From the IMG/VR virus record IMGVR_UViG_3300043411_002907, positions 1 to 21,907 of that record: a stretch of 21,907 bases of DNA. One strand, 5' to 3'. The notes below the pieces were generated by a model, which saw only the letters and a program-made list of their open reading frames with translations, searched no databases and was not told the origin of the DNA. Shown piece after piece: positions 2,771 through 21,128 of this stretch. Each line of letters opens with the position of its first letter. The first letter of the stretch is position 1. The stretch comes from a virus. A program made the translations under genes and the position numbers.

Positions 2771-2850
2771 CAGCGCACCAGCCGTCCGGTGAGCGCGGCC
2801 CACAGCGCGACGCCGTATCCGATCGCCGCGAGGATGAGCAGAGCGCTCAC
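2767..2850 (-). CDS. Very small membrane peptide (27 aa)
   Basis: A 27-residue peptide, nearly all of it one membrane segment (SALLILAAIGYGVALWAAL), ending GRLVRW. Its GTG start overlaps the stop of the GH25 gene (GTGA, 2847-2850) and its stop overlaps the start of the 49-residue gene in the same way. Two identical coupling junctions are the main reason to accept so short a gene. A holin-related or regulatory membrane peptide is a reasonable guess; no homology can be claimed. Confidence 0.5.
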   Translation of the reverse strand: MSALLILAAIGYGVALWAALTGRLVRW

Positions 2851-3587
2851 GGCTCCTCCCGTCCGCACAGCTTCCAGAACACCGCGAGGTCGTCTTCTGT
2901 GCCGCGGAAAACACTGCGGTCCTGTCGCGCGCGCGCGAACCCCGGCACGGTGCGCGGGTAGCGCACGCGGTCCGCGGGGCCGTCGCTGCCGTTGGTGTAC
3001 TGCATCATCGACCAGCGATCCCACGCGATCGGGACCTTCACGGTGAGCGGGTCCGGGCCGTAGGCCGCGAGCCATAGCGGGCACCGCGCGAGCACGGCGC
3101 GTTGCTCCGGCGTCGCCCGCGCGCACTCAGCGCGGAGCATCGAGAGGTAGCCGTAGAACACCGGCCAGCGTCCCGTCACCTCGCGCACGCGCGTGACGAA
3201 CGCGACCGCGTTCCCGAGCGTCATGTTCCCCGCGGCGCCGTGGTTCGTCTCGAAGTCGAGGACCAGCAGCTCCGCGCGATCCCCGACCACCGACAGGAAG
3301 AAGTCGGCCTGCGCCGCGCCGGTGCCGTTGCCGCTGGCGAAGTGGTACGCACCGCGCGCGAGCCCGTGGACCTTGCACGCGTCCATCGCGGCGATGAACT
3401 TGGGGTCGCGCCAGTCGAGTCCCTCCGTCGCCTTGTGGATCATCGCGACGATGCCGCCCGCGCGCGACACCGCGAGGTCATATGCGCCGTCGGAGTGGTG
3501 CATGTCCACGATGCCCGTGCAGAGCACCGGGGACGGCGTCGAGAGCCCCGCCGCCACGCGCTCGGAGTCCGTGAGCCGGCCGGTCAC
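2847..3587 (-). CDS. GH25 lysozyme, putative endolysin
   Basis: A 246-residue glycoside hydrolase family 25 (Cellosyl/lysozyme type) enzyme, expected to cleave the MurNAc-GlcNAc bond of peptidoglycan. Family signs: GIVDMHHSDG at residues 25-34 with Asp28, AMIHKATEG (48-56), the region around YHFAS (81-85), and the catalytic strand VLDFET with Asp111 and Glu113, followed later by WPVFYGY, LWLAAYG and MMQYTNG. There is no signal peptide, so release would need a holin. The start is GTG, overlapping the stop of the peptidase gene (GTGA at 3584-3587). The first 20 residues or so precede the barrel and may be a short extension. Position after the peptidase and before two tiny membrane proteins fits a lysis cassette. 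Confidence 0.88.
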   Translation of the reverse strand: MTGRLTDSERVAAGLSTPSPVLCTGIVDMHHSDGAYDLAVSRAGGIVAMIHKATEGLDWRDPKFIAAMDACKVHGLARGAYHFASGNGTGAAQADFFLSVVGDRAELLVLDFETNHGAAGNMTLGNAVAFVTRVREVTGRWPVFYGYLSMLRAECARATPEQRAVLARCPLWLAAYGPDPLTVKVPIAWDRWSMMQYTNGSDGPADRVRYPRTVPGFARARQDRSVFRGTEDDLAVFWKLCGREEP

Positions 3588-4393
3588 AGCGCGCCCCGCG
3601 GGTCGTAGTCCGGGCGCACGTCGAGGTCGCTCCCCTTCGGCGGGAAGAGGTCGCCGGGCGCGTGTCGGATCGCGCGCAGCGCGTGGATCTCCCCGCACCA
3701 CGCGAGCGAGAGCCACGCGGCCGGGAGCCACGCTTCGCCGCCCGCACCCCACGAGATCCCCCAGGAGTTGCGCACGCGGAGCTGTACCCCGTGCGCGTCG
3801 CATTGGTAGCCCACGAGGCAGACGGCGTGACCGCCCACGGCGTCACCGTCGGGCGCAGGGAGCACCTCGCCCGGTGCGTCCCACTGGTCGGTCACGCGCA
3901 CGCCGACGACGACGGGATGCCCGCACGCGAGCTCCCAGCAGACGCTGTCGAGGTCATGCGCGAGCGGCTCCGCGGACACGAGCCGCGGCGCGTCGGGCGC
4001 GCGGTCGCGCGGCTGCGCGGTGTAGCTCCCGTCGAAGGTCGCCGCGGGCTCGACGAGTTCGCGCTCCCATCCGCCGCGCAGCACCTCGATCCCGTCCGCG
4101 ATGATCGCGCCGGAGTCCTCGCGCGTGGTGCCGATCGCGCGACGGGCGCGGTAGTACAGCGCCGTCCGGTCGGGGCGCTCGGGCGTGTAGCCCGCGCGCG
4201 GCGCGAGGATCTCCGCGGCGCACGCGAGGGCCTGAGCGACGCACGATCCGACCTGCCGCTGGTCGTAGACCTCCGCGGGCGCGTCGAGCCGGACGTGCGA
4301 CGGGAGGGTGAGCCCCGGCGACGGCGCCGTGACTCGGCCCGCGTGCGGACGCCCGTAGCGGTCCGGGGAGAGCCATCCGAGGGGGCGAGTCAT
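3584..4393 (-). CDS. Papain-like (C1 family) cysteine peptidase
   Basis: A 269-residue cysteine peptidase of the papain fold. The active-site set is complete: Gln45 (oxyanion hole) and Cys51 in DQRQVGSCVAQ, His189 in GGHAVCLVGY, and Asn209 in RNSWGISWG, with the expected spacing. There is no signal peptide and no clear inhibitory pro-domain; only about 40 residues precede the active-site region. The ATG overlaps the stop of the 302-residue membrane protein (ATGA, 4390-4393) and its own stop overlaps the GH25 start. The context suggests a role at lysis or entry, such as cutting peptide stems, cell-wall-linked proteins or host proteins, but the substrate is unknown. Virion maturation is an alternative. 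Such enzymes are not a standard part of phage lysis cassettes. Confidence 0.85.
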   Translation of the reverse strand: MTRPLGWLSPDRYGRPHAGRVTAPSPGLTLPSHVRLDAPAEVYDQRQVGSCVAQALACAAEILAPRAGYTPERPDRTALYYRARRAIGTTREDSGAIIADGIEVLRGGWERELVEPAATFDGSYTAQPRDRAPDAPRLVSAEPLAHDLDSVCWELACGHPVVVGVRVTDQWDAPGEVLPAPDGDAVGGHAVCLVGYQCDAHGVQLRVRNSWGISWGAGGEAWLPAAWLSLAWCGEIHALRAIRHAPGDLFPPKGSDLDVRPDYDPRGAL

Positions 4394-5298
4394 CGGACGC
4401 CCGCGTCCACCGGGCGCAGGTCATCCAGCGCGCGAGAGAGCGGCCCGTGCGCTTCGCGGATTGCCCGCAGCTCCGCGTTCGCGCGGTCGCCCGCCGAGGA
4501 CCACCCCGCGTCGGGCGCGCACGACGGGACCAGCGCGTCCGCGATGGACGCGACGCCGTCGACCACGCGCTCCAGCGTCGTGCCGAGCGCGATCCCGCTG
4601 TCAGCGAGCACGCGCGCGAGCCCCGCGAGGGCGCGGTGCAGCCCGCCGACCGCGGCGTGTGCCGCGCATCGGTCGCCGCCGCGCAGCTCGTACGCGTCGA
4701 CCGCGCGCTCCATCTCGCCCGCCGCCGCCGCGGTCGCGTCGAGGGCGCGGGCCACCTGCGTTCGCGCGGGCTCCGACACGGTGACGTCCGTGATCGCGCG
4801 CGCGGCGGGGACGGCCCATCGCAGCGTCGTGAGCACCACGCGCGCCGTCGAGGTCCACGAGGACGGCGTCACCGCGGGTCCGCCGTCGACGGGCACCACG
4901 GGTCCGGGACACCCCGCGAGCAGCGCGCCCGCGAGGGTCGCGGCGATCACCGCGCCCGAGAGCGAGAGCATCACCGACACGCGCACGGCGCCGCGCTGCG
5001 GGTCCGACGGGGGCGGCGGGGCCTGCGTCGCGCGGGGCTGCGGCGGTGCGAAGATCGACTCCCCGCCGCGCGCGCGCACGAGGCGGTTGAGCGCGCCGGG
5101 GATGTTCAGTGCGAGTTCGGCGAGGACATCGAGCGCGGTCGTCACCGCGTTGCGCGGCATCGCGCGCCCGGTGACGCGCTGGTACGCGGTCTTGATCGCG
5201 GCCCACGCCGACGCGAAGGCGAGCGACGCCGCGGCGAGGTAGCCGAGCGCCTCCATCGGGTGCGCGGTGGACCACTGGATCATCTGGGACACGGTCAT
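4390..5298 (-). CDS. Membrane protein with two hydrophobic segments, possible holin/spanin-like
   Basis: A 302-residue protein of unknown family. One membrane segment lies at about residues 16-36 (EALGYLAAASLAFASAWAAI). After a Pro-rich linker (about 84-101), a second hydrophobic stretch (about 107-129) ends in LAGALLAGC, which resembles a lipobox with Cys130. The C-terminal half is Ala-rich and helical, with extra cysteines near 213 and 254. The ATG is well supported by CGGAGGGG upstream and lies four bases after the stop of the receiver-domain gene. Upstream of the peptidase and lysozyme, a holin or envelope-disrupting role is plausible but unproven. Confidence 0.7.
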   Translation of the reverse strand: MTVSQMIQWSTAHPMEALGYLAAASLAFASAWAAIKTAYQRVTGRAMPRNAVTTALDVLAELALNIPGALNRLVRARGGESIFAPPQPRATQAPPPPSDPQRGAVRVSVMLSLSGAVIAATLAGALLAGCPGPVVPVDGGPAVTPSSWTSTARVVLTTLRWAVPAARAITDVTVSEPARTQVARALDATAAAAGEMERAVDAYELRGGDRCAAHAAVGGLHRALAGLARVLADSGIALGTTLERVVDGVASIADALVPSCAPDAGWSSAGDRANAELRAIREAHGPLSRALDDLRPVDAGVR

Positions 5299-5302
5299 GG
5301 GA

Positions 5303-5719
5303 TCACCCCTCCGGGTGTGCGCCCTCGCGGGGCGCGGTCAGTTGTTCGACGAGCTCGCGCAGGGCGCGCGGGCCGTAAGGTTTCGGGAGTGCGACGACGC
5401 CGACGAGGGCGAGCGCGATGGCGTGCTGTGCGTCGGGGTCCATCGCGGACGCGAGAACGATGGGCGGGGACTTCGTGCGGACCCGCGCCGCCGCCGCGTC
5501 GAGGCGCACCCGCAGCGACGCGACGTAGTCCACGGGCGACGTGCCCGCGATCACGCCGCGCAGGTCCGTCACCACCGCGTCCGGGAGCACGGCGCCGAGC
5601 ATCGCCAGCGCGTCGTCATCGGTCCGCACGCGCGTCACCATCGCGACGCGATCGAGCGCGTGCGCCGCGATAGCCGCGATGTCGTCACGATCCTCGACGA
5701 GTAGGACGTGCGCGCGCAT
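5303..5719 (-). CDS. Stand-alone response-regulator receiver domain protein
   Basis: A 138-residue protein that is essentially one receiver (CheY-like) domain. The N-terminal VLLVEDRDD gives the metal-binding acidic pair Glu9/Asp10. VVTDLRG places the phospho-acceptor Asp52, LASA the switch Ser91, and LPKPYG the invariant Lys113 before the usual cis-proline. No DNA-binding or other output domain follows; the chain ends about 15 residues after the last helix. The start overlaps the end of the coiled-coil protein gene by 35 bases. No histidine kinase gene is in the window, so it would have to receive phosphate from a host kinase or small-molecule donor, or act by protein contact. All signature residues are kept, so it is probably functional. 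Confidence 0.8.
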   Translation of the reverse strand: MRAHVLLVEDRDDIAAIAAHALDRVAMVTRVRTDDDALAMLGAVLPDAVVTDLRGVIAGTSPVDYVASLRVRLDAAAARVRTKSPPIVLASAMDPDAQHAIALALVGVVALPKPYGPRALRELVEQLTAPREGAHPEG

Positions 5720-6200
5720 CGCCGCCTCCGTGCGAGTCCACCAGCGTGCGCAGGATCCCGATAGCATCCGCCACGCCCGCCGTGACCCATCCCTGGATCT
5801 CCGTGCGCAGCGCGTGGCGCGCAGTCGTGTGCGACTCGTCCACTCGCCGGATCTCCGCGCGCAGCGAGACGTGGTCCGCCTCGATGCGCGCGAGACGATC
5901 GCGGTCGTTCTCTGCGCGCGCCGCTGCTGCCGCGTGCTCGACCTTCGCGGCGTTGATGTCGCCGAGCGCGCGATCGAGCTTCGCATCCATCTTGCCGACG
6001 ACGGACGCGAGCGACTCAATCGACTGCGAGAGCGAGGCGACCGTGACGACGTGGCGCTGCGTCGCCCGCGCGGTGTCGTCGAGCACGCGGCCGTCCGTGT
6101 CCTGCCGCTGCGCACGGCGCGCACCCGACACGACCCACGAGACCACCGCGAGCACGACCCCCAGGAGCACGCCGGGGAGCCACGTCACCGCCGCCCCCAT
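5685..6200 (-). CDS. Membrane-anchored coiled-coil protein
   Basis: A 171-residue protein with an N-terminal membrane segment (about residues 6-26, LPGVLLGVVLAVVSWVVSG), a basic stretch (ARRAQR) and then a long helical, probably coiled-coil region (about 45-135) rich in Ala, Glu, Arg and Asp. The layout resembles i-spanins and small DUF2730/Mu gp25-like phage proteins, but I see no diagnostic motif. The ATG at 6200 lies just inside the 30-residue gene before it (16-base overlap), and the end overlaps the receiver gene. Placed between fibres and lysis enzymes, an envelope-spanning lysis role is a reasonable guess. Confidence 0.65.
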   Translation of the reverse strand: MGAAVTWLPGVLLGVVLAVVSWVVSGARRAQRQDTDGRVLDDTARATQRHVVTVASLSQSIESLASVVGKMDAKLDRALGDINAAKVEHAAAAARAENDRDRLARIEADHVSLRAEIRRVDESHTTARHALRTEIQGWVTAGVADAIGILRTLVDSHGGGDARARPTRRGS

Positions 6201-9505: not shown

Positions 9506-10108
9506 TCAGAAGGAGAGGAGGTCGACGTCGCACTGCGAGTCGTCGGAGCTGTTGCGCCACGCGCAGCGGAAGCCGTACGAGCGGCCGCGCGTCCAGGTGA
9601 TGTACGCGGGCGCCTGCTGCGCGAGCAGCGCGTCGACCATGCTCTCGACGGAGGTGTCGCCCGCGTCGGCGCCGAGCGTCACCGCGAGCCGGAAGATCGC
9701 CTCGATGTCGGTGCCCTCGACCAGGTCGTGCGCGAGTGCGATTACGACCGCCGCGGCGGCGATGGTCTGGAGCGTCGTCTCGATCGCTGCGCGGGTGCCC
9801 TCGCGGCGTGCGCGCCGCTTCGCGAGCAGCCGCGTCTGCCGCGTCGCCTCAGGGAGCCCGGCGCCGACCGGGAGCCCGTACTGGTATTCGAGCTCGGGGA
9901 GGAGATCCGTCGCGGTGCCGGAGTGGGCCTGGTCGACGGCGCGGGCGATGACCTCGCGGGCGTCGGCCAGCACGGAACCGAGCGCGCGCAGGTCCTCGGC
10001 GACGAGGGAGCCGTCGCGCGCGGTGATCGACGGGCCGATCAGCGTCGCGAGGGCGCGCGCGATCCGGTCCGACTCGGTCGTGCCGGTGGGAAGGGCCAAG
10101 GTCGTCAT
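9506..10108 (-). CDS. Baseplate protein, Mu gp48 (DUF2313/YmfQ) family
   Basis: A 200-residue protein matching the Mu gp48 family, which sits at the baseplate rim. The conserved part is DLLPELEYQYGLPVGAGLPE (about residues 69-88), followed by TRQTRLLAKRRARREGT, the usual 'poorly ordered linker then helix' of this family. The C-terminal third contains a single domain ending SQCDVDLLSF. In Mu this gene directly follows gp47; here a 957-base plus-strand lipoprotein gene separates them. The ATG has only a weak upstream GGGGAT site. The first start codons of the two divergent genes are just 39 bases apart. Confidence 0.8.
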   Translation of the reverse strand: MTTLALPTGTTESDRIARALATLIGPSITARDGSLVAEDLRALGSVLADAREVIARAVDQAHSGTATDLLPELEYQYGLPVGAGLPEATRQTRLLAKRRARREGTRAAIETTLQTIAAAAVVIALAHDLVEGTDIEAIFRLAVTLGADAGDTSVESMVDALLAQQAPAYITWTRGRSYGFRCAWRNSSDDSQCDVDLLSF

Positions 10109-11104: not shown

Positions 11105-12700
11105 TCACGCGGGCTCGATGACGATCGAGCCTGGGACGAGCAGGTATCCAGGCGCCGGAATCCGGTCCCCGCTCGGCGTAGGCACCGTCACCCCCAGCAC
11201 TCCGTCGACACCCTGCGCGGCCTGCGAGATGCGAGACTGAAACAGCGTGTCGGGCGAACTCGCCGCCGTCGGCCGCGGGTAGCGCGCGGAGGGCACGCTG
11301 AGCGTTCCGCCGGTGATGAGCCCGCCTGAGATCGTCCCGCCCTCCCGCGCGTCGCCGGGGCCGAGCGAGTCGAAGAGCATCAGCACCGCGCGCCGGATCG
11401 AGTCCCAGAGCCCGCAGTCTGGGCGCACAAGGTTCGACGCGGAGGGCGCCGTGGGGAGCGCCTCGGCGAGCGTCACGCGCAGCCCCGCGACGCCCTGGAC
11501 CGTCGCGAGCCACCACCCACCTCGGATCGTCCCCGTGCCGATCTGCACCGCGATCTGGTCGTTCGCCGCGATCCCAGACACGTCGTCGAGGTCCAGCCAC
11601 GTCGCCGACGATGCTGTGATCGTGCGGAAGGCCGGATCACTCTCGCCCCACGGCCACGTCGCAACCGAGGGGTCGATCGTGACGCGCACGGTCACGTCCA
11701 CCGTGACGCCGGTGGGGAGCGGCACGAAGAGGTTGTCGGTGAGCAACGACGCGGGCGCGAGCTCACGCTGCTGCCCCGCCGCCACCGCGAGGCCGTCCAC
11801 GTCCACGGTGCCGAGGAAGTAGTTGCGCAGGCCCGTGGCCAGCGCGAGGAGCGGCACCCTGCTGTAGCTCGGGTCGAGCCCCTGTCCCAGCGTGAGGCCC
11901 GTTTGCGTGTAGCTGTCCTCGGCGGGTGCGGGCGTTACAGGGATGACGGTGAGGACGCCGGGGTACGCGAACTGCGGCGCGACGGTGGGGATCCTGCGCG
12001 AGCGCGGGTACACGAAGCACTCGCCGACGCCTGCGAACTGGTAGCCGATCTCGCGCACGTCGGCGCGGTTGAAGCTTGCGGGCTTCTCGCGCATCCGCTC
12101 CAAGAGGCGCTGGCGCAACGTCGCATCGCTCTCGGCGTTCTGCGCCACGCGCGCGACCGCCGACGTGGTGCCCGTCGCAGCGAAGCCCGTCGGCGCCGAG
12201 CTCCAGGTGAGCACCGTGCCCGTCGCGAGGTTGCCCGAGGTCCCTGCGGTCTGCGCTTCGACGGTGATGGTCGCATTGCCGCTGCCGTCGGTGTCGATGC
12301 TGGTGATCTCCACGCCCGTCACGCCGTCGATCGGCGTGAAACGCAGGCCCGCGGAGGTCGCGAGGGTCGCGCCGTTGATGAGCGTGGTGCTGGACACCGG
12401 GCCCGAGACGGTGACGGTGTGGCGCGCCGTCGTAGCGCTCTTGCGCGCGGTGCCATCGTCCTCGGCGAAGCGGTCGAGGTCCGTGCTGGTGCCCGACCGC
12501 ACGAGCACCCGGTTCGCCGCCTGCTGCGCGCCGAGCTCGATGCCGCCGAGCTCGTGCGCGAAGGCGTCGCAGAGGTCGTACGCCTCGCTCCCCTCGGTGA
12601 TGTCGAGGTCGCGCGGGGGCACCATCGCCGCGTAGCGCGCGCGCCAGCGGGCGAGGAGCGTGTCGCGGATCGTCGCGGCGGTGCGGGCGGAGAAGGCCAT
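11105..12700 (-). CDS. Baseplate J-like protein (Mu gp47 family)
   Basis: A 531-residue baseplate protein, linking wedge and hub. Family signs: N-terminal helix region with DLDITEGSEAYDLCDAFAHE, then LVRSGTSTDLDRFAEDDG (about residues 66-83), the repeat-like beta region with GNLATGTVLTW, and ESDATLRQRLLERMREKPAS (about 189-208), the classic Baseplate_J 'AE(S)D..LR.R' segment. The C-terminal part contains further beta-rich modules and ends near SIVIEPA. The ATG lies three bases after the stop of the gp46 gene. The 3' end meets the lipoprotein gene head-on in the shared palindrome TGATCA. Confidence 0.9.
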   Translation of the reverse strand: MAFSARTAATIRDTLLARWRARYAAMVPPRDLDITEGSEAYDLCDAFAHELGGIELGAQQAANRVLVRSGTSTDLDRFAEDDGTARKSATTARHTVTVSGPVSSTTLINGATLATSAGLRFTPIDGVTGVEITSIDTDGSGNATITVEAQTAGTSGNLATGTVLTWSSAPTGFAATGTTSAVARVAQNAESDATLRQRLLERMREKPASFNRADVREIGYQFAGVGECFVYPRSRRIPTVAPQFAYPGVLTVIPVTPAPAEDSYTQTGLTLGQGLDPSYSRVPLLALATGLRNYFLGTVDVDGLAVAAGQQRELAPASLLTDNLFVPLPTGVTVDVTVRVTIDPSVATWPWGESDPAFRTITASSATWLDLDDVSGIAANDQIAVQIGTGTIRGGWWLATVQGVAGLRVTLAEALPTAPSASNLVRPDCGLWDSIRRAVLMLFDSLGPGDAREGGTISGGLITGGTLSVPSARYPRPTAASSPDTLFQSRISQAAQGVDGVLGVTVPTPSGDRIPAPGYLLVPGSIVIEPA

Positions 12701-18915: not shown

Positions 18916-20475
18916 TCAGCCGATCTGGAGCACGTCGCCGACGGTGGAGTGCAGGTGGTCGATCACCTTCGTGGGGATCGACGCGACGGCGTAGGTGGTG
19001 CCGTCGACGGTGGTGGTCCCCACGGTGACCGCGGAGGCGTTCGCGGTGACGTCGCGCACGAGGCCCTCCTCCTCCATCTCGCGCAGGATCGAGAGCACGT
19101 CGTCGCGGATAGCGGACGGCCAGATCAGGCGAGGGTTGGACGGGGCCTCCTCGGTCGTCGCCGGGTCGCTGGTGAGGTTCTTGTCCGCGTAGTTCGCCGC
19201 GGCCCACGCCTCCAGGCGGTCGGCCACGAGGTCGGGCACCGCGACCTTCGAGGTGTCGTGCACCGCGTAGGAGATGCCGTTCTGTGCGTTTCGCGTGCGC
19301 GTGGTCACCGGGCGCACGACGTTGGCGTAGCCGGGGTGCGCGTAGTCCGCGCCGATCACCGTGACGCCGTCGGCGAGCAGGCTGTTCACGTCCGTCGCGG
19401 AGAGGCGCTCCTCCTCGTCGGTCGCGAGGATCGCCGGGTAGAGGCTCAGCCCGTTGGCCTTCGCCGCGCGGTAGGTGTCCTCGCCAGGGAGCGCGCCGTC
19501 CAGGGGCCCGTAGACCTTCGCCGCGAGGTACGCGCCGAGGATCTCGTTGCCGGGCATGTGCGGGCGCTTCTGGCAGAGCAGCACCACGCGGCCGTTGTTC
19601 ACCGCCACCGCGTCGGCCTGGACCGTCGAGACCGTGTCGTTCAGCGCGGGGAGCGACGCCATGCGCCGCATCCCGACGTTGATGCCGCTCTGCGTGTCCA
19701 CGTGCGTCGACACGGCGGTGCGGATCGTGTCGTCGTCCGCGTCGACGCCGATGCGGTCGTAGCGCGCGCCCGAGATCGCCGTGAGCGCGGTCGTAAGGGT
19801 GGGGTTGCCGACGCCCGCGGTGGCCGGGGCGCCGCTGCCGAAGTACGCCTTGCCGCTCGCAGCCGTCGACGCGCCGTTGAGCGCGATGGTGATGCCCGTC
19901 GCGGTGATCTCGAACACCACCCGGTTCTGGTTGCCCTGCGCGCCGGTGTTGGACGACGTGAGCGTGTAGATGTGCTCGGAGCCACCGCCGCCGACGGCGC
20001 CCGTCGCGGGGAGGTCGCTCATCTCGGCCACCGCGGCGGCGACCAGCGTCGCGGCCTGCGCCGCCGTGGTCCCCGACGGGATCTGCACCTCGCGAACGAG
20101 CTGCCCCGCGATGCGCAGGCGGATCACGCCGGCGGCGGTCGCCGGGCCGGTGAAGGTGAGCACCGCCGTCGCCGCGGTGCCGCCCGCGTCCGCCACGGGG
20201 CAGGCGTAGAGCCGCGCGCGCGGGGCGATCATGCGGAACGCCCGCACCGCCCCTGCGAGGCGCGAACGCGCGCCGAACTTTGCGTTCGCGTCCGTCGCAT
20301 CGCCGACCTCGACGGGCACGTTCGCGGTCGCGGTGCCCGCGGCCAGCATCATGCCGACGAGCATCACCTTCAGGCCTGAGAGGGCGTTGGCGCCGGCGCC
20401 GACGCCGAGGCGCACGGCGAACGCGACGAGCGGGATGTGGACGGGGGTGAAGCCGTTGGGGAGCGACGTCGACAT
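18916..20475 (-). CDS. Contractile tail sheath protein (Mu gpL-like)
   Basis: A 519-residue tail sheath subunit, close to Mu gpL in size. The N-terminal part has GLKVMLVGMMLAAGTATA followed by NVPVEVGDATDANAKFGARS (about residues 54-73), then RLYACPVAD and the inserted domain GPATAAGVIRLRIAGQLV, all typical of the Mu-type sheath. The C-terminal third has GISYAVHDTSK and ends in the strand-helix arm that links neighbouring subunits (IPTKVIDHLHSTVGDVLQIG). I chose the ATG at 20475 over a longer frame because GAGGTCCACCGCC is just upstream and the frame before it overlaps the previous gene in an antisense-like composition. It proves a contractile tail. Confidence 0.92.
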   Translation of the reverse strand: MSTSLPNGFTPVHIPLVAFAVRLGVGAGANALSGLKVMLVGMMLAAGTATANVPVEVGDATDANAKFGARSRLAGAVRAFRMIAPRARLYACPVADAGGTAATAVLTFTGPATAAGVIRLRIAGQLVREVQIPSGTTAAQAATLVAAAVAEMSDLPATGAVGGGGSEHIYTLTSSNTGAQGNQNRVVFEITATGITIALNGASTAASGKAYFGSGAPATAGVGNPTLTTALTAISGARYDRIGVDADDDTIRTAVSTHVDTQSGINVGMRRMASLPALNDTVSTVQADAVAVNNGRVVLLCQKRPHMPGNEILGAYLAAKVYGPLDGALPGEDTYRAAKANGLSLYPAILATDEEERLSATDVNSLLADGVTVIGADYAHPGYANVVRPVTTRTRNAQNGISYAVHDTSKVAVPDLVADRLEAWAAANYADKNLTSDPATTEEAPSNPRLIWPSAIRDDVLSILREMEEEGLVRDVTANASAVTVGTTTVDGTTYAVASIPTKVIDHLHSTVGDVLQIG

Positions 20476-20492
20476 GGCGGTGGACCTCGGTA

Positions 20493-21128
20493 TCAGGTGC
20501 GCGGTTCGCGCGCGGTGGACGTGGTGACGGTGGTCTCGACGGGGTCCTTGACCGCGCCGTCGAAGACGAAGGGCGTGCCGGGGAGGGCATCCGCGGCCGG
20601 GTCCGGGAGCTCGGTGTCGGCCGCGAAGCGCACCGCGTAGACGTAGGCCGTGCGGCGCGCGACGAGCCACGGTCGCGCCCCGAGCCAGCGCACGCCTCCG
20701 CCCTCGAAGAGCCCGCTGATCTGGAGCCCCGCGAGCGCCTCGGTCACCCGCTGCGCGCAGAGCAGCGCCCCGGGCTGTCCGGCGACCACGCCCTTGAGCG
20801 CCTCCTCGTCGCCGCGCAGGTCACGCACGACCACGAAGACGCGCCAGAACGTGCGCGCGACGATCTGAATGAGCCGCGGACCGTCCTGACGGAAAATCCC
20901 GCCGTCCCCGAGCGGTTCAACGCCCTCGAACGCGAGTAGTGCGGCCGGGTGCTGCTCCGGGGTGAGCGCGTAGAGCCCCTGCTCGACGTGCTGGACGAGG
21001 TCCATTGTGACCTCGCCCGCGAAGCGCCGCAGGTGTCGGAAGGGCTGCGTCGCCGACGGCGTCGCGTTCACGAGCCCGCCGAGGGCCGTGTAGAGCGCGG
21101 CGTCGATCTGGTCGAGCGTCGCGGTCAC
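20493..21128 (-). CDS. Mu gp37/DUF1834-like protein
   Basis: A 211-residue protein upstream of the sheath, matching the place of Mu gp37 (DUF1834), thought to act at the neck or tail terminator. The N-terminus TLDQIDAALYTALGGLVNAT (residues 3-22) and LLAFEGVEPLGDGGIFRQDG are consistent with the family. The middle has RTFWRVFVVVRDLRGDEEAL. The start is GTG at 21128, overlapping the upstream stop (GTGA, 21125-21128). An in-frame upstream Met exists but would add 27 antisense-like residues. The C-terminus ends with a Thr/Val-rich tail. Confidence 0.7.
   Translation of the reverse strand: MTATLDQIDAALYTALGGLVNATPSATQPFRHLRRFAGEVTMDLVQHVEQGLYALTPEQHPAALLAFEGVEPLGDGGIFRQDGPRLIQIVARTFWRVFVVVRDLRGDEEALKGVVAGQPGALLCAQRVTEALAGLQISGLFEGGGVRWLGARPWLVARRTAYVYAVRFAADTELPDPAADALPGTPFVFDGAVKDPVETTVTTSTAREPRT

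Follow-up and report, generated by a model that had tools for sequence, protein, structure and literature searches.

A CheY-like receiver beside phage lysis genes suggests that some phages time host bursting with a borrowed signalling switch

Here we analyzed an IMG/VR virus record of 21,907 bases and ~73% GC (hereafter the window), in which a small receiver protein is encoded between tail and lysis-type genes. Upstream of the receiver and on the same strand are genes for a Mu-like sheath, the baseplate hub, baseplate J, a gp48-like wedge protein, and further tail-region proteins. The features used in this work are listed by window position.

2847-3587, minus strand: GH25 lysozyme-type endolysin (PF01183, E=5.4e-27; phrog_291, endolysin)
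3584-4393, minus strand: papain-like (C1) cysteine peptidase, probable lytic enzyme (PF00112, E=3.2e-5; phrog_16701)
4390-5298, minus strand: 302-aa protein with a holin-like TM and a second TM with lipobox LAGC, resembling an o-spanin lipoprotein (by topology and position)
5303-5719, minus strand: stand-alone CheY-like receiver, 138 aa (by PF00072 profile, family profile, and predicted fold)
5685-6200, minus strand: small membrane protein, 171 aa, proposed receiver partner (N-terminal TM at residues 2-20 and a heptad-patterned region)
9506-10108, minus strand: gp48-like baseplate wedge protein, used as position anchor (profile matches)
11105-12700, minus strand: baseplate J protein, used as bait for relatives (profile matches)
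18916-20545, minus strand: Mu-like tail sheath protein, used as bait for relatives (profile match)

The receiver ORF runs from an ATG at 5719, preceded by a Shine-Dalgarno-like GGAGG, to a stop that ends at 5303, and its codon-position GC of 0.83/0.49/0.90 fits coding in this frame. A sequence-only reading of the window had claimed a full set of receiver signature residues and the lack of an output domain. Both claims are borne out, as the acidic pair E9/D10, the phospho-acceptor D52, S91, and K113-P114 are all present, and the protein is a receiver alone that stops at residue 138 with the last helix and a short tail, leaving no C-terminal winged-helix output domain of the PhoB/OmpR type. That reading also placed the gene between a coiled-coil membrane protein and the lysis genes, which is the arrangement we found. 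The gene for the 171-aa membrane protein, which has a coiled-coil-like heptad pattern (z 2.1), overlaps the receiver start by 35 nt at its end. The 302-aa ORF begins 4 nt past the receiver stop, behind a Shine-Dalgarno-like AGGGG; it has no family match, and its putative role comes from topology and position. The peptidase gene that follows resembles an annotated phage endolysin, and its stop is overlapped by the GTG start of the GH25 gene. Throughout the window family, the names holin, spanin, and coiled-coil are given by topology and position.

The absence of a kinase nearby, also claimed from the sequence, agrees with our domain search: scanning the window and 13 related records, all of them incomplete genomes, for HATPase_c gave no match, while control genomes gave matches. 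A complete two-component system is thus not seen here, as no cognate histidine kinase is encoded in the window or the 13 related fragments. Two further suggestions, a myxobacterial setting and a prophage, gained no support. A scan of genome contigs with the sheath alignment gave a single bacterial genome with a relative of this group's sheath, a Rhodocyclales MAG at 27% identity (JAQGMG010000047.1, L036), and no flanking host sequence was identified in the record, a 21.9-kb IMG/VR fragment.

Searches with the receiver as query found no relatives in viral contigs, in genome contigs, or by tblastn in phages and plasmids. These negatives are weak because the receiver is Ala-rich and a large part of it is masked by the low-complexity filter of BLAST, and a first reading of the receiver as an orphan gene was dropped on account of this masking. 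Full-length sheath, baseplate J, GH25, and C1-peptidase queries likewise retrieved no relatives. A short segment of the sheath led to 20 related viral contigs and a J-protein alignment to 18, giving 32 distinct records besides the window, and a PF00072 search of these located a receiver in six (G008, G025, G026, G027, G028, and G029). The receiver lies ~3.3-4.0 kb downstream of the gp48 homolog in the six relatives and 3.8 kb downstream in the window; the remaining records with a gp48 homolog end no more than ~2.1 kb past it. The receiver is therefore present in 7/7 contigs that reach the site, namely the window and the six with 3.3 kb or more of sequence beyond gp48, although G025 and G027 are close kin and not independent in this count, and all records of the family are metagenomic fragments. 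The search for the same domain at the equivalent position, proposed in the sequence-only reading, was thus successful in every relative that reaches the site (6/6). In each it sits between a small membrane or coiled-coil protein and genes for holin-like, lipoprotein, and endolysin proteins. The family receivers are 19-43% identical to that of the window, with G025 and G027 at 43% and their coiled-coil proteins at 38-40%. The J proteins of the receiver-bearing relatives are ~30% identical to the window's.

Taken as a single sequence, the window receiver gives only a weak Pfam match that leaves room for doubt, with residues 5-124 aligned to Response_reg at E=3.4e-4 and 21.2 bits, under the gathering score of 30.2 bits. 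It also matches phrog_731 (6.5e-5), a phage family without assigned function. The G026 and G029 receivers score above the Pfam gathering score, at 48.9 and 47.0 bits. A profile built from the six relatives, run against 9,648 translated frames, recovers the window receiver at 4.8e-16 and has no match there beyond known receivers. The profile of all seven sequences matches 254 distinct PDB sequences, the best at 1.2e-16, and nearly all of the matches listed are response regulators. AlphaFold performed poorly on the single sequence (pLDDT 60), and a fold search from that model was meaningless; the model from all seven sequences was used instead, with pLDDT 87.9, pTM 0.83, and a clean (βα)5 order. 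A confident fold of this type was the check named beforehand for a CheY-like protein. Foldseek and VIA-align searches with this model returned overwhelmingly response regulators (Z ~16-17), among them the receivers of PhoP, CheY, KdpE, PmrA, and Spo0F, with an rmsd of ~2 Å over ~118 residues. By fold, active site, and profile, the protein belongs to PF00072 and is a true receiver, presumably one that can be phosphorylated. It shares the fold, the acceptor site, and the lack of an output domain with the single-domain regulators CheY and Spo0F; unlike these, it is phage-encoded and lies in a lysis operon with no cognate kinase found. We also considered the divergent receiver fold of jumbo phages, cREC, which keeps the catalytic Asp and is reported alongside NAD+/RNA-repair genes (PMC7824862). 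This identity was rejected since cREC is a weaker structural match than true receivers and the neighbors in the contigs examined are tail and lysis-type genes rather than NAD+/RNA-repair genes.

All seven family members keep the acidic Asp, the phospho-Asp, and a Ser/Thr. The conserved Lys is Lys in 5/7 and Arg in 2/7 (G008 and G028). Degenerate Asp or Lys positions among relatives had been named as grounds for abandoning the receiver assignment; these apply only in part, with the Asp intact in 7/7, the Lys changed to Arg in two, and a degenerate copy in Alteromonas phage V19 (below). The phospho-Asp is kept in 13/14 of all phage sequences compared. The position of CheY Tyr106 is Ala in the window receiver and Ala, Met, or Leu across the family, and the Met-Pro motif that follows the phospho-Asp is lost in most members, including the window receiver, where the β3-α3 loop is longer. 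Given these changes at Tyr106 and Met-Pro, the signal output probably differs from that of CheY/OmpR.

The receiver stands alone in the window, G025, and G027, and is joined to a hydrophobic segment in the other four of the six relatives. In G008 and G028 this is an N-terminal hydrophobic helix, and the two proteins can be aligned with each other through the extension. In G026 weakly hydrophobic TM-like segments precede the receiver within one ORF, and in G029 (L064 449-1699, minus strand) the receiver is followed by a strong TM segment in one ORF. The G029 ORF also has an in-frame internal ATG behind GGAGA that could give the membrane part alone, a possible dual start reminiscent of lambda S107/S105. 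After the receiver, G025 and G027 encode a holin-like protein, a lipoprotein, and a putative HExxH metalloprotease (by motif), and G025 additionally encodes an Amidase_2 endolysin. The holin-like and lipoprotein parts are one ORF in the window (4390-5298) and in G026, and separate genes in G025/G027 (L060 4006-4628). In G026, the TM-receiver gene is separated from the holin/lipoprotein gene by an ORF resembling a D12-class adenine DNA methyltransferase (L061 5808-6689, minus strand).

Between G025 and G027 (L045/L048 17156-17552), the receiver has a dN/dS of 0.54, near the top of 23 gene pairs, compared with 0.07 for the adjacent coiled-coil gene. The receiver value could reflect either a relaxation of constraint or adaptation to differing host partners and does not discriminate between them. 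Several of the G025/G027 substitutions fall in α1, which in known receivers forms a surface that faces the kinase.

When viral proteins were searched by fold, the top match was ORF30, a CheY-like protein of Alteromonas phage V22. In V22 the gene order is a papain-like amidase, small hydrophobic/coiled-coil ORF29, receiver ORF30, an overlapping Rz-like spanin ORF31 (phrog_4297), and a 2-TM protein. Using tblastn with the V22 and R8W receivers, stand-alone receivers were found in A5, R9Y1, R8W, PB15, and XX1924, along with a degenerate one in V19. In the schitovirus A5, a coiled-coil protein precedes receiver gp11, which is followed by Rz-like spanin gp12 (phrog_4297), a 2-TM protein, and gp14, an endolysin as annotated. 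R9Y1, a siphovirus by name, has a TM/coiled-coil protein, the receiver, and an endolysin (phrog_315). In R8W (Autographiviridae), holin gp46 (phrog_1356) and a TM protein come before receiver gp48 and a membrane protein after it, so that the receiver falls between the holin and the terminase. In PB15 and XX1924 the receiver follows an XhlA-like protein (phrog_937, "hemolysin"), with an endolysin (phrog_894) and a holin (phrog_3427) next in PB15. XhlA is a lysis accessory protein of the PBSX type, a small heptad-patterned protein with one TM; the partner in the window family differs in its N-terminal TM and lack of a family match. The V19 copy (PT11-V19, OP751378; L075 3498-3950) is receiver-like but has lost the phospho-Asp, Ser/Thr, and Lys; it still follows a small TM protein and adjoins a 3-TM holin-like gene.

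In these cultured Alteromonas phages, a spanin, holin, or endolysin lies within three genes of the receiver. Since these cases were found by receiver similarity and not by place, the link with lysis genes is not built in; the association describes phages retrieved in this way and is not a full census, as Alteromonas phages without a receiver were left out, as were unannotated "phage" records among the tblastn matches, many of them probably host DNA. An artificial consensus receiver matched only host-like DNA when searched against phages, and the G029 receiver only unannotated or contaminant-like records. One exception to the setting is Stenotrophomonas phage Bhz63, where a full-length regulator is followed by a kinase-like gene beside recombination genes. 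The link to lysis raised in the sequence-only reading thus gains from two sides, the position kept in every contig that reaches it and the recurrence of this gene pair within the lysis cassettes of Alteromonas phages that are unrelated.

The receivers of V22 (ORF30), A5 (gp11), and R8W (the PhoB-like gp48) resemble the window's in being stand-alone, in following a small TM/coiled-coil protein, and in lying amid lysis-type genes, while they are not close to it in sequence, have the Tyr switch in canonical form, and carry an additional extension at the C terminus. The papers on these phages (PMC7289586, PMC10579305, and PMC8228385) annotate the gene as an AMG or PhoB and do not draw a link to lysis. 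Gonzalez-Serrano and colleagues (PMC10579305) describe the gene block of A5, V22, and P24 as a laterally transferred host recognition module, in which the CheY-like gene is called an AMG and gp29/31/32 are given as of unknown function. In the block shared by V22 (L069, MN877442; 5370-7039) and A5 (L070, OP481051; 3631-5745), the unknown genes look like lysis genes, the candidates being the Rz-like spanins (phrog_4297), 2-TM holin-like proteins, and the small membrane protein with a coiled coil encoded ahead of the CheY-like gene. Because the block is shared by lateral transfer, the Alteromonas cases are not fully independent. They comprise three divergent receiver types plus V19, and together with the window family they amount to at least two independent settings.

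Our search, which mostly did not extend to subscription papers, found no literature tying a CheY-like receiver to phage lysis. The T4 antiholins RIII and RI (PMC8385771) and N4 gp62/gp63 (PMC12642591) are small and are encoded with or act on holins, as proposed for the receiver; unlike the window protein, they are not described as receiver folds. The "Receiver domain" of N4 gp63 was rejected as a precedent, as it is the authors' label for a mutation cluster near the TM and is not CheY-like (PMC12642591).

The receiver, then, has its fold and active site intact, is tightly coupled to its operon, keeps its position among relatives, is fused to hydrophobic segments in some of them, and recurs with its partner gene in unrelated phages. 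From this we infer a role in which a phosphorylatable single-domain receiver is part of the lysis module and modulates the timing of lysis, a reading whose chances we regard as about even. The receiver would be made late, together with the tail and lysis genes, and may dock on the upstream membrane-anchored coiled-coil protein, the downstream holin-like protein, or both. Host histidine kinases or acetyl phosphate would set the Asp52~P state, and this state would shift holin triggering in one direction or the other; for example, the receiver could act as a soluble antiholin-like brake that is released or applied according to the signalling or energy state of the host. Since two members carry Arg for Lys and V19 has lost its active-site residues, phosphorylation is not essential everywhere. 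The same changes, and the missing switch aromatic of the window family, speak for a phosphorylation-independent adaptor, in which the receiver fold docks to or scaffolds a coiled-coil/holin complex and retains the acceptor site by descent. We consider the adaptor rather unlikely, given that the acidic pair and phospho-Asp are kept in seven members, and the phospho-Asp in nearly all phages compared, despite such low identity. Between them, the phospho-switch and the adaptor make some lysis-modulating role likely.

Sitting in a lysis module does not prove a role there, and the receiver may instead act on the host as a decoy or AMG, draining or mimicking the phosphoryl flow of host kinases and so reprogramming stress, motility, or phosphate responses, with its late-gene place incidental. 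The intact acceptor site and missing output domain would suit such a function, the V22/A5 gene has been published as a class II AMG (PMC7289586, PMC10579305) and the R8W gene as PhoB (PMC8228385), and PIT4 is an example of a phage protein with several host kinases as binding partners (PMC10714779). A decoy would be expected to be expressed early and from any place in the genome, whereas in all of the lineages examined the receiver is tied to late lysis-type genes, and the hydrophobic fusions fit a membrane partner better than a soluble sponge; we therefore find it unlikely. A part in the tail-fiber or host-recognition module, such as an assembly accessory, would follow from the published V22/A5/P24 module boundaries (PMC10579305) and from the receiver closely following tail-fiber genes in several phages. 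It is quite improbable, as the R8W receiver lies between holin and terminase, that of PB15 lies between the XhlA-like protein and an endolysin, and the shared genes past V22 ORF30 and A5 gp11 encode Rz-like spanins and 2-TM proteins. Least probable of all, and very much so, is a captured host gene without selected function, a moron being lost. The fast evolution of the receiver relative to the adjacent coiled-coil gene would agree with this, but the ORF, operon position, and active site are retained in seven contigs with highly diverged J proteins.

Lysis timing is usually accounted for by holin accumulation and antiholins, with sensing known mainly for superinfection (lysis inhibition). If the phospho-switch reading is correct, a switch in the lysis operon would let the phage read host signalling or energy state when releasing progeny. 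It would also mean reassigning a number of genes published as "AMG" or "PhoB" and naming likely spanin and holin genes where they have been reported as unknown. As the same gene pair is present in cultured Alteromonas phages, the idea is testable now. More tentatively, and less likely than not, a late phospho-receiver paired with a membrane coiled-coil protein may be a general lysis-timing device, one that links holin triggering to the two-component or acetyl-phosphate state of the host and that contractile, siphovirus, schitovirus, and autographivirus phages have come to share.

Elsewhere in the window, ARAGORN predicts a tRNA-Ala (TGC) at 2479-2550 on the minus strand, adjoining the lysis genes. 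An Rfam scan of the whole window at gathering score was empty and does not include this tRNA, which is either doubtful or divergent. Positions 1-2400 hold several small plus-strand ORFs with a codon-like GC pattern, opposite in direction to the structural genes; one of them, at 325-588, encodes a Cys-rich zinc-ribbon-like protein.
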